Below are positions 20,646 through 24,922 of a stretch of DNA of 64,000 nucleotides, piece by piece. The DNA comes from Armatimonadota bacterium (GTDB lineage Bacteria; Armatimonadota; Fimbriimonadia; Fimbriimonadales; Fimbriimonadaceae). The first letter of the stretch is position 1, and each line of letters opens with the position of its first letter. The position numbers and the translations under genes are program-made. Under the pieces are notes generated by a model. That model ran no database searches. It was given only the letters and a program-made list of their open reading frames with translations, and was not told the DNA's origin. The stretch is taken from the NCBI GenBank assembly GCA_018268395.1, contig JAFDWQ010000001.1, positions 285,720 to 349,719 on the forward strand, written 5' to 3'.

Positions 20646-21782
20646 TTAGGGCGCGATCATCCAGACGGCTTTGTCCGCTTCGTGGCACCAAAGGGCGACC
20701 GCCGTCGCCCCCACCGCCCGCACCCGGTAACGGGCCTTCACCGCCGACCCGGCCCCGACGTACCGTGACAACGTTCCCGTGCCGACCACGTCCTGCTCAC
20801 CGTAGACCGTATTGATCGGTGCGACCGAGACGTCGGTCGGGTCGAACACGCCCGCCTGCTGGTCGAAGAGCTCGAGCGTCTGCTGGAACTGACCGCCGTT
20901 GACCGTGTGTGCGCGCAGGCGGAAGACGAATTCCGTCGGATTGGCGATCGGCGACGTGCCGCTCACTTCGACGTTCACCGGTGCCGCGCTTTGGTTCGGC
21001 ACGACGAACTTGCAGACTTTGAACGCGTTCCCATCGCTCGCCAGAAGGCTCGTCAACGAACCTGCCGTGAGCTTGCCGAGTTTGACCGCGACCGAGCCAG
21101 GAGCCGCCCGCTGGAACACCTTCGTCTCGGTGACGGTGTGGTTGATCCCGACGAAGTCGCCGACCGACGTCGTCCTGTACTCCAGGTCGATCCTGTCGCC
21201 CGTGTCGAGCAAGTGCCCGGTCAAGGCGGCGGCGCCGCCCGATCCGGCCGAGAAGTCCATCGGGACCGCGCGTGAGTACGCGTCGCCCGAGGCGATGCTT
21301 CCGGTCGAGACCTGGACGCCACGGACGAAGAGGAACCAGTCGTTCGAACGGCCGATGTCGCGGCCCATCCACGTGTTGCCGGCCATATTGACCCTGGCCG
21401 GACGGGGCGCTGTGAACCTCGATTTGCCGTGGGTCGTTCCGACGCCGTTGGTCGGGTCCCAGGAGTGGCAGACGATGTCTCCGGCGACGAAATCGTGGGC
21501 AAAAGTTTCGGACCCGTTGCTGCGAAAATAGAACGGCAGGCGGTTGTTACCGTCCTCGGACTTCGCCCATCCGGGCTGGGCAATGGCCCAGCCCCCCAGG
21601 TTCCGCTGCCACCAGTCGACGTGCGGGAGAAGGTTCTCGCCCTCAGTGAACGACCAGACGCCGTTCGGGTTGCTGCCTTCGTTCCAGTCGGCCTTCAAGT
21701 CGTAGACGTCGGCCATCGCCGTGCACCCCGCCACGGCCGCCAGGCACGTCAGGGCGCTCCGAAATCGTCGCATCGGCTTCAC
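20646..21782 (-). CDS. Secreted protein of unknown function
   Basis: The 378-aa protein has a signal peptide (MKPMRRFRSALTCLAAVAGC then TAMA). The mature part is rich in beta-strand sequence and aromatic residues, including NPNGVWSFTEG and DWWQRNLGGWAIAQPGW. Such features occur in bacterial exported proteins often carrying PEP-CTERM-like tails, but no sorting motif is seen here. The GTG at 21782 is chosen over the ATG nine bases downstream, because TACCAT lies exactly 6 nt upstream of it. It converges on the glycosyltransferase gene with 12 bp between the stops. Confidence 0.65.
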   Translation of the reverse strand: MKPMRRFRSALTCLAAVAGCTAMADVYDLKADWNEGSNPNGVWSFTEGENLLPHVDWWQRNLGGWAIAQPGWAKSEDGNNRLPFYFRSNGSETFAHDFVAGDIVCHSWDPTNGVGTTHGKSRFTAPRPARVNMAGNTWMGRDIGRSNDWFLFVRGVQVSTGSIASGDAYSRAVPMDFSAGSGGAAALTGHLLDTGDRIDLEYRTTSVGDFVGINHTVTETKVFQRAAPGSVAVKLGKLTAGSLTSLLASDGNAFKVCKFVVPNQSAAPVNVEVSGTSPIANPTEFVFRLRAHTVNGGQFQQTLELFDQQAGVFDPTDVSVAPINTVYGEQDVVGTGTLSRYVGAGSAVKARYRVRAVGATAVALWCHEADKAVWMIAP

Positions 21783-21788
21783 GCCGTT

Positions 21789-21794
21789 ATGGTA
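21789..21794 (-). promoter_or_regulatory. -10 box (TACCAT) for the secreted protein gene
   Basis: On the minus strand TACCAT is followed after 6 nt by GTG. The spacing equals that of the other leaderless-type starts in the window and decides the start codon. Confidence 0.45.
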
Positions 21795-22032
21795 CAGGCG
21801 GTTTGCGCCGAAGAGGCCAAGGACGGGCCTGACATTTGCGACAGGTTTTTGTCCGGCAGGGGGGCGAGGGCAAGGGTCGGAACCCGCGACCTGTCTCGGA
21901 GGAGCTTGTCCGACCACGTCCCGGTCCGGGCCTGGCCCCCCGAACCGACCCGTACGTCCGGACCAGCCGAACCCAAGGCCTCCGATCGTCCTGGCATCCT
22001 TGCCGGCTGGCACGAATCGCGACTTACAGGCG

Positions 22033-22038
22033 TATAAT
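22033..22038 (+). promoter_or_regulatory. -10 box (TATAAT) for the riboswitch transcript
   Basis: A perfect TATAAT lies just before the first paired segment of the c-di-AMP riboswitch. No convincing -35 hexamer is seen at the usual distance. Confidence 0.55.
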
Positions 22039-22041
22039 AGT

Positions 22042-22185
22042 GACAGGCGGTGTCCGCACCGCCGATTCCGAGGCCTAATGCGCCGCCTGTGGGCGCTACG
22101 GGGGACCCAGACCTGGGGTGAATGCCGAGCGATCGGCAAGGGTGGTTCTTGGCCCTAACCCGTCAGCTAACCTCGTCGGCCGATG
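22042..22185 (+). ncRNA. Cyclic di-AMP riboswitch (ydaO/yuaA class)
   Basis: The region carries the class hallmarks in order: a GC-rich 5' segment, GGGGGACCCA, CTGGGGTGAATGCCGAG, and then CCCGTCAGCTAACCTCGTCG. The last block is the strongly conserved 3' core of ydaO motifs. The transcript starts from a TATAAT 4 nt upstream. These riboswitches bind c-di-AMP and usually turn off cell-wall or potassium/osmolyte genes. Here the only following reading frame before a terminator is a 68-codon one. A small hairpin (CCGGG-CTTGT-CCCGG) follows and abuts a GGAGGAG ribosome-binding site, suggesting translational control. Confidence 0.85.
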
Positions 22186-22218
22186 CAAGAACCGGGCTTG
22201 TCCCGGAGGAGGAGTCGA

Positions 22219-22425
22219 GTGATTTGCGCATTGGACATCGACCGTAGAGACCGCCCCACGGGCGTCGTCGAAGCGTGTCGTGCCGGTGCGTCGAACCCCT
22301 TGGCACTGACGACCACCCGGGCCCTTTCGGGGGCGCGGTTCAGTGTCCATGAACCTCCAGAACGCCTGACCGGCGGCCAAGGCCCTCTGTCACCACTGGG
22401 GCCGGAAGCGGACCGGCGGCCATAA
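22219..22425 (+). CDS. Small hypothetical ORF behind the c-di-AMP riboswitch
   Basis: This is a 68-codon frame starting with GTG, preceded at a good distance by GGAGGAG. The peptide is rich in R, P, G and A and resembles no family I know. Its codon bias is less clear than that of neighbours, so it may not be coding, or may be what is left of a longer gene. Its position between a riboswitch and a terminator is the main support. Confidence 0.3.
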   Translation: MICALDIDRRDRPTGVVEACRAGASNPLALTTTRALSGARFSVHEPPERLTGGQGPLSPLGPEADRRP

Positions 22426-22446
22426 CCGAAAATCTCGCTCCTTCAT

Positions 22447-22488
22447 GGCGGCGCCCTTCGAAGCTGAAGGGGGCCGCCCTTGTTTTCG
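22447..22488 (+). terminator. Rho-independent terminator ending the riboswitch transcript
   Basis: GGCGGCGCCCTTC and GAAGGGGGCCGCC pair with a single mismatch around a short loop, followed by CTTGTTTTC. It separates the riboswitch unit from the MFS gene, which has its own -10 box. Confidence 0.75.
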
Positions 22489-22497
22489 GCCCGCCGC

Positions 22498-22503
22498 CAT
22501 AAT
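22498..22503 (+). promoter_or_regulatory. -10 box (CATAAT) for the MFS gene
   Basis: CATAAT ends exactly 6 nt before the TTG at 22510. No ribosome-binding site is visible. This supports TTG 22510 over the upstream ATG at 22480, which lies within the terminator and promoter DNA. Confidence 0.5.
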
Positions 22504-22509
22504 CGGGCC

Positions 22510-23700
22510 TTGCGCCACAAGCCGCTGCTCGCCGTCTTCTTCACGGTCATGTTCGACATGCTCTCGTTCGGAACGGTCATCCCGGACGTGCAGCTCCGGG
22601 CCGAGTCGCTCGGTGCCCGTGGCGTCCTCGCCGGATTGGTGCTCGCGACCTTCAGCGTCGCTCAGCTCGTGTTCGCGCCCCTGTTGGGCCGATGGAGCGA
22701 CATTGCGGGCCGCCGGAGGGTCTTGATCGTGACCTGCTCCCTGGCGGCCGTCTCGTCGGTGGTGTACGGATTCGCCCACAGCCTGCCGACGATGTTCGTC
22801 TCCCGCGCATTGCTCGGCGTTGCGGGGGCCAACCTCGGCGTCGCCTACGCCTATGTCAGCGACGTGACGAAGCCTGAAGAGCGGGCGGGCGCGATGGGGC
22901 GTCTCGGCATGGCGTTCGGAATCGGTTTCATGATCGGCCCGCCTCTCGGCTCGCTGATGATCCGGCTCGGTCACGGCGACCCGTTGTTGTTGGGCCTGAC
23001 GTCGGCCGCGTTCGCCGTCGTCAACCTGCTGTTCGTCTCGTTCTTCCTCGAGGACGCGCCCCCGAAAGACTCCGAGCCGGAAGCATTCCACGGCAAAGGA
23101 CCGGTCGGAAAGCTCCTCATGGCGTTACAGACGCCCGGATTGGGTTTCCTGCTCGTGTTGTTCCTTTTGGCGAACTTCGCGTTCTCGAACCTCGAGAGCA
23201 CGTACTTCCGTCTGGCCCATGACGTGTTCCACATCGACCAACTCCAGACTTCTGGCGTCCTTGTCCTTGTGGGTGCGACGGCAGCGGTGTTCCAAGGCGC
23301 TTTCATCCCTCGACTGGTACGACGTTACGGAGAAGTGAACTTGATGCGGATCGGCTATCTCGTCCAAGCCCCGGCACTGGCCGTCGTCCCCTTCGCCCCG
23401 GTCTGGATCCCGCAGTTGCTCGGTGCCATGGGTCTCGGCATCGGCTCCGGACTGTCCGGCCCGAACCTGAGCAGCTTGATTTCCAGGGCTGCGCCCGCCG
23501 CGATCGTGGGCGGCATCTTCGGCGTGACCCAATCGCTCGGCGCGGTCGCCCGGATCTCGGGCCCGATCGTCGGCAACGCGCTTTACGAAACCGCGCCGTG
23601 GCTGCCCTACGCGTTCGCCGGTGGGGCCATGCTCGCACCGGTCGTCATGTCCCGCCTTGTCCGCCAACCGGAAGCCGCCGCACCTCGGGCGGTATCCTGA
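22510..23700 (+). CDS. MFS transporter (TetA/multidrug-like)
   Basis: The 396-aa protein has twelve predicted helices. The MFS motif A is in the 2-3 loop (GRWSDIAGRRRVL). A motif C-like GXXXGPPLG stretch occurs in helix 5 (GIGFMIGPPLGSLM). The first helix contains the acidic DMLSFGTVIPD typical of 12-TMS TetA-type proton antiporters. It likely exports a drug-like compound. The start is TTG 22510, judged from the -10 box 6 nt upstream and from the immediate hydrophobic N-terminus. It is insulated from the upstream riboswitch by a terminator. Confidence 0.85.
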   Translation: MRHKPLLAVFFTVMFDMLSFGTVIPDVQLRAESLGARGVLAGLVLATFSVAQLVFAPLLGRWSDIAGRRRVLIVTCSLAAVSSVVYGFAHSLPTMFVSRALLGVAGANLGVAYAYVSDVTKPEERAGAMGRLGMAFGIGFMIGPPLGSLMIRLGHGDPLLLGLTSAAFAVVNLLFVSFFLEDAPPKDSEPEAFHGKGPVGKLLMALQTPGLGFLLVLFLLANFAFSNLESTYFRLAHDVFHIDQLQTSGVLVLVGATAAVFQGAFIPRLVRRYGEVNLMRIGYLVQAPALAVVPFAPVWIPQLLGAMGLGIGSGLSGPNLSSLISRAAPAAIVGGIFGVTQSLGAVARISGPIVGNALYETAPWLPYAFAGGAMLAPVVMSRLVRQPEAAAPRAVS

Positions 23701-23728
23701 ACGAGAATGCCGCACTGCCGACCGTTGC

Positions 23729-24097
23729 GTGAGGTTCCGATTGCCCGGTAATCGCCGGGACGGCTTCGCGCTGTCGGTCGGCGGTCTTGTGTTCTTGGCC
23801 GGCCTCGCCCTGATCGGAGCGACGTTCTGGCAGGCGTACGACCTGTTCACTAAGGCGCCACAGATCAATCTCGGCATCGCTCCAGGCAAGCCGATCGACT
23901 TTAACGTCGTCGGGCTGAACTTCGTCCGGTTGATCGTCAAGATCCTGCTCTTGGTCGTGATGGCCGTCATCGGTTCGCTGTTCGCGACGAAGGGTGTGAA
24001 GATGTACTCCTCGGCCCCCGAGTCCTTTTCGAAGCCCGATCGGTCGGAGCAAGGCCCGGAGGAGGGCCGCCCTACCGCGACGGCGAAGGATGTATAA
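23729..24097 (+). CDS. Small hypothetical two-helix membrane protein
   Basis: This is a 122-aa protein with two membrane segments (about residues 12-35 and 65-90) separated by a loop containing LGIAPGKPIDFNVVGLNF. The charged C-terminus includes EEGRPT. The family is unknown. The start is probably the GTG at 23729, since the longer upstream frame has no hydrophobic or conserved character. Its stop codon overlaps the TATAAT box of tRNA-Pro. Confidence 0.55.
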   Translation: MRFRLPGNRRDGFALSVGGLVFLAGLALIGATFWQAYDLFTKAPQINLGIAPGKPIDFNVVGLNFVRLIVKILLLVVMAVIGSLFATKGVKMYSSAPESFSKPDRSEQGPEEGRPTATAKDV

Positions 24098-24098
24098 T
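24093..24098 (+). promoter_or_regulatory. -10 box (TATAAT) for tRNA-Pro
   Basis: TATAAT ends 13 nt before the first base of mature tRNA-Pro. It overlaps the stop codon of the upstream gene. Confidence 0.6.
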
Positions 24099-24111
24099 CC
24101 GTGATCCCAGT

Positions 24112-24188
24112 CGGGATGTGGCTCAGCTTGGTAGAGCGCCTCGTTCGGGACGAGGAGGTCGGAGGTTCGAATCCTCTCATCCCGACCA
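24112..24188 (+). tRNA. tRNA-Pro (anticodon CGG)
   Basis: The cloverleaf is complete. The acceptor CGGGATG pairs with CATCCCG, the anticodon stem CCTCG/CGAGG encloses TTCGGGA, the T-arm contains GGTTCGAATCC, and CCA is encoded. The anticodon CGG reads CCG. Confidence 0.97.
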
Positions 24189-24244
24189 GACTTCCCGGCC
24201 CGTCCGCCAGGACGGAACGTTTCTAAGGAACACCTTCCGCGGTC

Positions 24245-24922
24245 GTGTACGTCCCGCCCTACTTCCCTGAACCGATCACGGTGTCCGGCAACGTCGCGGA
24301 CGCGAGGTACCGCGAGCGGGTGCGCTTCTTGCGCACGGTCGTCGGACGGCACTTTCTCTCCGTCGCGGTGGTCGCCGCGTTCGGGCTCTGGCGGCCGTTC
24401 GAAGGCACGACGACGTTCTGGGCCTTCGCTTTCGCTGCCGGCCTGGTCGCGCTGACCTTTGTCCGGCGCACCGCCTCCGGATCTCGGTGGGACGGTGCGG
24501 TCAGCCTGGCCGTGTTGCTCCCTGTCCTTGCTTTTGCGGGTCTGTGGTTGCGGGGCTTGGACGACAACGAGTTCCCTGTGTTCTCGTTTGCGGTGGTCTC
24601 GTCGGCGCTCGGGGCCTATTCCCTGTTCTGCGGACAAGACTTTAGTTACACGGGCCAGTTCGTCCTTTGCAACGTGGCGTCGGCGTTGTTCTGCGTCTCG
24701 ATGACCCTGGCCGGTCGGGTGCCGGGTTGGAACGCGGCCGCGGGATGGGCGGTCGGCGCGCTCTACACCTTCTATTACACGTACGACCTCTCGATGATCG
24801 TGAAGCGGCGACGTCCCGACGAAGCGTGGGCGGCGGTGGCGGACCTCTACCGCGACCTGATCAATTTTTCGACCTATCCGGTGAGGGTGTTCCTGCACTG
24901 GCGGAGGTTCAGTAACATCTAG
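24245..24922 (+). CDS. Bax inhibitor-1-like membrane protein
   Basis: The 225-aa protein has six or seven hydrophobic helices after a short N-terminus. The C-terminal part follows the BI-1/YccA pattern: YTFYYTYDLSMIVKRR, then ADLYRDLINFSTYPVRVFL. In YccA the equivalent is a YDT motif and LYLDIINLF. In bacteria such proteins interact with FtsH (YccA is an FtsH modulator), and ftsH is encoded about 5 kb away on the other strand. The GTG start is supported by AAGGAACA about 12 nt upstream. The assignment is from short motifs only. Confidence 0.55.
   Translation: MYVPPYFPEPITVSGNVADARYRERVRFLRTVVGRHFLSVAVVAAFGLWRPFEGTTTFWAFAFAAGLVALTFVRRTASGSRWDGAVSLAVLLPVLAFAGLWLRGLDDNEFPVFSFAVVSSALGAYSLFCGQDFSYTGQFVLCNVASALFCVSMTLAGRVPGWNAAAGWAVGALYTFYYTYDLSMIVKRRRPDEAWAAVADLYRDLINFSTYPVRVFLHWRRFSNI

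Follow-up and report, generated by a model that had tools for sequence, protein, structure and literature searches.

The window, by which we mean the whole 64,000-nucleotide stretch of DNA analysed here, contains a c-di-AMP-type riboswitch that appears to control an RNA without a conserved protein product, the switch having been retained after its gene was lost; we give this reading a probability of about one half. It rests on comparison of sequences, which points to a genuine aptamer, the absence of a core protein family, a retained expression platform and an RNA module in four genera, and a non-coding action of the RNA is suggested by these together. The window would hold a self-contained riboswitch transcription unit of ~440 nt with its own terminator, if its start is placed by the -10 box. 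In the ancestral arrangement, the riboswitch would have stood before a small protein of ~94 residues and probably controlled its translation, through a platform in which the 3' strand of the aptamer pseudoknot overlaps a hairpin adjoining a strong Shine-Dalgarno sequence, part of which may also be covered by a proposed outer helix, P0. The protein gene would then have been lost in the clade of the window genome, and the retained switch would now govern an RNA lacking a conserved protein product, the working part of which is probably a conserved 3' module of ACCTCC block, CACCAC-loop hairpin and terminator. The fuller version, a takeover from protein to RNA in which a common ancestor lost the gene and the riboswitch persisted through about ten genera to serve a non-coding regulatory RNA as its sensor, is put forward tentatively, as a little short of an even bet.

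The comparison covers 85 genomes of the family, including the window's own, 74 of which have an RF00379 match, and a set of 131 loci (the window, 70 of the 75 first-scan loci outside its genome, and 60 more). Fifteen loci in 10 genera have a window-type riboswitch without the small protein and are here called class C: the window, G001, G002, G003, G010, G013, G090, G027, G007, G018, G087, G024, G032, G033 and G004, among which G024 (72% complete) and G002 (88%) are incomplete genomes. A solute-binding/permease fusion or a major facilitator superfamily (MFS) match lies beside 13 of the 15; of the other two, the window has the MFS gene and G090 was placed by its platform only.

A covariance-model search of the 64-kb window, as suggested in an earlier note on this DNA that had recognised a ydaO-type motif, matched RF00379 at 22062-22196 on the forward strand (as are all features of the unit) with 76 bits, where the gathering score is 38 (E 7.3e-16). 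This is far beyond chance, and by its sequence the c-di-AMP (ydaO/yuaA) aptamer is real; a genome-wide search found it to be the sole RF00379 match in its own genome. The aptamer would be expected to bind c-di-AMP, with which the single diadenylate cyclase domain of the genome (PF02457, E 1.3e-38) is consistent, though no more than that. The other elements that had been described are likewise present: a TATAAT at 22033-22038 (by eye), a hairpin at 22192-22206 (CCGGG-CTTGT-CCCGG), a Shine-Dalgarno-like GGAGGAGGAG at 22205-22214 that was read directly and is kept in the genus, a 68-codon frame from GTG 22219 to TAA 22425, and an intrinsic terminator at 22447-22486, also kept in the genus, with a stem (22447-22478) of 13 positions and one mismatch followed by CTTGTTTT. 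A simple terminator scan did not list this terminator. TATAAT, TATACT or CATAAT was seen by eye 5' of the aptamer in 13/15 class C loci. The promoter the earlier note had assigned to the MFS gene itself did not emerge from a promoter scan, in which neither strand of 21700-24300 showed a sigma-70-like site; the same scan missed the TATAAT of the riboswitch, presumably for want of a -35 match.

How might the switch work? Strand GGTTCTTG (22144-22151) forms 8 Watson-Crick pairs with CAAGAACC (22186-22193), and pairing is found at the expected place in 13/15 class C loci, the exceptions being G024 and G004, a count that has no null test behind it. A pseudoknot is named for the c-di-AMP riboswitch in the available text of a published report (PMC5393176); the mapping of its strands is ours. 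Directly 5' of an SD-like sequence there is a stem in 15/15 class C loci and in 12/12 small-protein loci tested, G074 and G077 being omitted because their stems are arranged otherwise. The stems themselves differ (for example CCGGG/CCCGG, CCGGAGT/GCTCCGG, CCAGGC/GCCTGG and CTGGTCG/CGACTGG), with single-locus P from 0 to 0.16 and 0.04 for the window alone. Since pseudoknot and hairpin share the CC at 22192-22193, they should compete. The candidate helix P0 would pair CGATTCC (22063-22069) with GGAGTCG (22211-22217) and cover part of the Shine-Dalgarno sequence; cognate pairs exceed permuted ones over 27 loci (P 0.004, or 0.014 when each genus is represented by a single class C locus), yet P0 stays a proposal because it is not significant within class C (P 0.21) or within the small-protein loci (P 0.43). 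With no terminator directly behind the aptamer and a platform next to the Shine-Dalgarno sequence, translational control is plausible, presumably with an OFF-type direction. A translational c-di-AMP switch has been proposed for Corynebacterium glutamicum nlpC (PMC9960051) and, as far as the available part of that report goes, it likewise lacks a terminator directly behind the aptamer and has its platform beside the Shine-Dalgarno sequence; it controls a peptidase gene, whereas the frame behind the window's switch is unconserved. We also considered a long-range helix between the Shine-Dalgarno sequence and CTCGCTCCTTC, which appears when the window sequence is folded at minimum energy, and rejected it, as its RNAduplex energy did not beat dinucleotide shuffles in any one of 14 class C loci (P 0.13-0.94). 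The stretch 22197-22495 as a whole is just slightly more stable than its shuffles (z -1.59).

The strong Shine-Dalgarno sequence retained beside the switch invites the view that a real small protein, evolving fast, is read from the GTG frame, or that translation itself matters, in replacement of the ancestral protein under the same riboswitch. The earlier note had likewise considered a small new c-di-AMP-regulated peptide and proposed looking for conservation of its frame in relatives, which was not found in convincing form in the 84 other family genomes: a search with the 68-aa sequence over all 85 returned itself and weak matches (best E 0.006, with internal stops), none of them at orthologous loci. 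Within the genus, mean pairwise identity is 0.80 in the aptamer, 0.72 in the hairpin and Shine-Dalgarno sequence, 0.38 in the frame interior (22225-22338), 0.68 over blocks A-B and 0.76 in the terminator. GC by codon position (.72/.62/.67) is unlike that of neighbouring genes (about.65/.47/.82), and a frame at least as long from that GTG is expected by chance in dinucleotide shuffles (P 0.36). The reading frame also shifts within the genus: the spacing between two conserved blocks is 40 nt in the window, 39 in G001, 34 in G002 and 39 in G003, which does not keep the two blocks in one frame.

Two weaker signals favour translation and are what survives of the peptide proposal. Codon usage is better than in shuffles in the window (P 0.004), G090 (<0.002) and G013 (0.02), with G002 at 0.064, but it is unremarkable in G001, G003, G010, G007 and G027. 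Frames from the SD-proximal start end 11-35 nt 5' of the terminator in 7/12 class C loci measured (the window, G001, G002, G003, G010, G090 and, from a CTG, G013), where the 36-nt stop window was set after looking; each frame length has a P of 0.26-0.40 singly, and a comparable frame is not present in five loci (G007, G027, G018, G087 and G024). Frame openness and codon usage thus hint at translation in g1, g8 and g11, and because of them we leave the peptide or its translation about one chance in five. On the sequences compared, we judge that the 68-codon frame is not a conserved gene.

What stood behind this riboswitch before? Among 219 candidate frames of 50-250 codons 3' of aptamers, 24 match a seed small protein at E<0.01, and an iterated profile, which may have drifted, takes in 43 of them. 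We define the core family, A1, by an alignment of 14 members (consensus MLTEFEVRxR...RKARxLLRLxRSL). It looks helical. A PDB search gave two weak matches, one of them a designed coiled coil going by its name. Two members tried had no Pfam match and no NCBIfam match above cut-off (one sub-threshold line, E 0.018), and PADLOC returned nothing for all 14. Synteny ties the family to the window locus: in G069 a solute-binding/permease fusion (813-aa type, PF01547 + PF00528) is divergent from riboswitch, small protein and MFS gene, G019 has riboswitch, small protein and MFS gene in this order, and in G015, G074 and G077 fusion and small protein occur at the riboswitch locus. The loci of the ~94-aa family thus resemble the window in riboswitch type, hairpin/Shine-Dalgarno platform and syntenic position; they differ in that the core profile fits no frame of the window unit and nothing in the class C genomes. 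Standing directly behind c-di-AMP riboswitches in the order, this ancestral family is a candidate c-di-AMP output. In many relatives the 813-aa-type fusion lies where the window has a divergent 374-aa frame (20646-21770, reverse strand), for which there was no Pfam or NCBIfam match.

We rejected the window frame as a member of the family: no window frame is among the 12 best matches to the A1 profile, and there are 0 matches in its own genome. The class C matches do no better than shuffles, except for an 82-aa frame of G004, whose weak similarity (9.2 bits against 7.7 for the best shuffle) we do not claim as relationship. A whole-genome search with A1 at E<=0.01 found nothing in any of the 15 class C genomes. 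G105 gave a single weak match, which lies within a 492-aa frame, and the matches were strong in 12 genomes that had been chosen because they carry A1. As relatives' syntenic riboswitches precede a gene of ~94 codons, this agrees with the other option of the earlier note, that the original gene was lost. In an rpoB tree, rooted only for drawing, one group (support 100/100) unites 12 class C rows with G105, a genome that has a different riboswitch, and leaves the 12 carriers outside; G032, G087 and G024 were not placeable. A second family of the order has carriers too (G040, G042, G044, G046, G050 and G054), which makes loss in the class C lineage the simplest reading. Loss of the protein gene in the clade containing the window genome is accordingly supported by the sequence comparisons, if only as a probable history. 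It would have happened once, and it looks old, with the RNA unit retained since, which the earlier note did not foresee. Counting against complete loss, a wider iterated profile also picks up small proteins that follow other riboswitches in G013 (G013:C1:511828) and G032 (G032:C34), so that a distant relative may persist elsewhere in these two genomes. The rpoB gene of the window's own genome has its 3' end split over two frames (G000:C5:423218-424277, the last 30 profile positions lying in a separate 122-aa frame), either an assembly error or a frameshift.

A riboswitch that has lost its gene could be a decaying relic, aptamer and terminator being what is left. The disappearance of the core family would fit this, as would the missing locus in 7/8 genomes of g30 (it is also missing in G036 and G089, both incomplete), and aptamer scores are slightly lower in class C (mean 78.8 bits) than in gene-bearing loci (82.5 bits; P 0.07), with several poor terminator tails. 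However, the unit has been retained in 10 genera, its aptamers scoring well above threshold, the pseudoknot persists in 13 of 15 loci, all 15 platform stems are kept with different pairs, and a 3' module is conserved across four genera. As the drop in aptamer score is not clear-cut and the hairpin persists through ten genera with varied paired stems, we consider a mere relic improbable.

The alternative that we prefer, an RNA acting without a conserved protein, draws on this 3' module. In the window, the terminator-bounded unit has no conserved open reading frame but does have conserved RNA structure and sequence outside the aptamer. Three stretches 3' of the start are conserved in the genus, namely the GAACCTCC block, GTCACCACTG(G/A)GG, and C(T/G)CGCTCCTTC with the terminator. 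Mapped onto the window, genus conservation marks block A, CCATGAACCTCC, at 22347-22358 and the pyrimidine-rich CTCGCTCCTTC at 22434-22444, 5' of the terminator; between them lies a hairpin at 22381-22403 (stem 22381-22386 / 22398-22403) with CACCAC in its loop. RNAalifold on five sequences yields two helices only, this hairpin and the terminator. CACCAC lies within a hairpin loop in 7/8 sequences, G027 being the exception, where shuffled flanks give 0.15-0.35 each. Covariation of its stem over the 8 sequences, with 71% of cells paired and 5/9 pairs changed on both sides, is by itself not significant, given that 55-157/500 shuffles reach the measures and that the structure slid by +1 scores slightly higher (0.341 vs 0.313). 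For the terminator in four genus members, both sides are changed in 3/13 pairs, which 10/500 shuffles reach. Terminator-like hairpins were seen by eye in 14 class C loci, with T-poor tails in G010, G013, G018, G027 and G090.

A covariance model of the module, R1, was built from the window, G001, G002, G003 and G010 (genera g1 and g8) and scanned over 15 other loci. Its top ranks fall at the right place in G013 (26.4 bits, E 2.9e-5) and G027 (17.4 bits, E 0.006). Third is G090, also at the right place, at an E of 0.25 that is no better than the stray matches in L051, L037 and L130 (E 0.3-0.6). R1 finds nothing in five syntenic small-protein loci, and it does not recognise the module in G007, G018, G087, G024, G032, G033 and G004. 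Across the family, each of the five genomes that it was built from has one copy, and one further match, in G005, is borderline (E 0.04). By the criterion of these matches, the module of CACCAC-loop hairpin and terminator is recognisable in four genera. Besides RF00379, Rfam families gave only matches far under curated scores in the unit.

Regarding targets, block A is complementary to GGAGGTTCATG, of which 4 genomes of the genus have 16 sites in all, the locus itself accounting for 3. The sole orthologous gene pair among them is a lipoprotein-like frame of 44-45 aa (G000:C1:709341 and G001:C89; L183, L184), in which Shine-Dalgarno sequence and start (GGAGGTTCATG) make up the part complementary to block A. 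We regard this as a weak target guess, and the match is not evidence because, on a rough estimate, ~1 is expected by chance. The exact pattern TCACCACTGGGGC occurs in 7/85 genomes, 4 times at the locus and 3 times elsewhere; one of the latter sites lies inside a gene read as that of a penicillin-binding protein.

Could the terminator instead be an attenuator within a long expression platform, with the downstream MFS gene (22510-23700, PF07690) as the true target? No cell-wall, ion or osmolyte gene lies behind the window riboswitch, and this MFS gene, beyond the terminator, is the next one. An MFS gene follows on the same strand in the window, G001, G013, G027, G007 (there behind an opposite-strand frame), G018 and G087. 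Yet at the corresponding place in several relatives it is broken (G002), inverted (G004) or absent from searches, there being no MFS match in the stretch examined in G003, G010, G090, G024, G032 and G033, and the unit is kept in all of these; in addition, no antiterminator pairing survived a test. Because the unit persists where the MFS gene is broken, inverted or not found, the gene seems dispensable for its retention and control of it by attenuation is very unlikely. The window MFS protein (22510-23697, forward strand) resembles NCBIfam tetracycline-efflux families far under their cut-offs (148 vs 475 bits) and is a generic drug-efflux-like transporter. In G002 (L034) several stops and frame changes break the MFS gene, next to an intact riboswitch unit.

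Riboswitches are nearly always interpreted by way of the gene that follows. Known genes of c-di-AMP riboswitches include transporters, cell-wall genes and genes of the osmotic response, according to the available part of one report (PMC7266159). With RF00379 riboswitches the window shares an over-threshold aptamer, the pseudoknot pairing and a cyclase in the genome; it differs in having no cell-wall, K+ or osmolyte gene, and the unit behind the aptamer encodes no recognised protein. Regulatory RNAs derived from riboswitches are known from SreA (SAM) and Rli55/EutX (B12) (PMC8383071, in its available text). These combine riboswitch and regulatory RNA in one transcript, as we propose for the window, but on that account answer to B12 or SAM through another aptamer class, whereas for the window RNA there is one weak target guess; the window RNA, in contrast to them, stands where relatives have a protein gene. 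Our literature searches found no report of a c-di-AMP-controlled regulatory RNA, and nothing on a c-di-AMP riboswitch in Armatimonadetes or a riboswitch in Fimbriimonas. If a non-coding RNA under the retained switch is indeed what the window holds, c-di-AMP would regulate an RNA rather than a protein, and the origin of riboswitch-controlled RNAs could be traced by comparing living relatives.

Finally, other frames were seen behind c-di-AMP riboswitches of the family. A second small-protein type, with a start like MRLLxxxExxF, lies directly behind other such riboswitches in G014:C26, G005:C1:57540, G008:C1, G018:C1:165698, G025:C97, G034:C1:2523209 and G067:C6:943701; three members were seen to end in PFMEY or PFMEF, and neither Pfam nor NCBIfam gave a match for the G034 member as printed. 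In genus g30 (G032:C34, G102-G108) the riboswitch is 5' of another small protein, MSFVSQIMRKASIVERS..., the G105 member of which is likewise without a match in either database. A hisB-like gene (imidazoleglycerol-phosphate dehydratase), which is an unusual target for this riboswitch class, lies downstream of a c-di-AMP riboswitch at L006 1875-2453 (G005; PF00475 checked), and hisB-like frames, judged from their N-terminal sequence, also follow such riboswitches in G023, G030, G009:C5, G034 and G019:C2.
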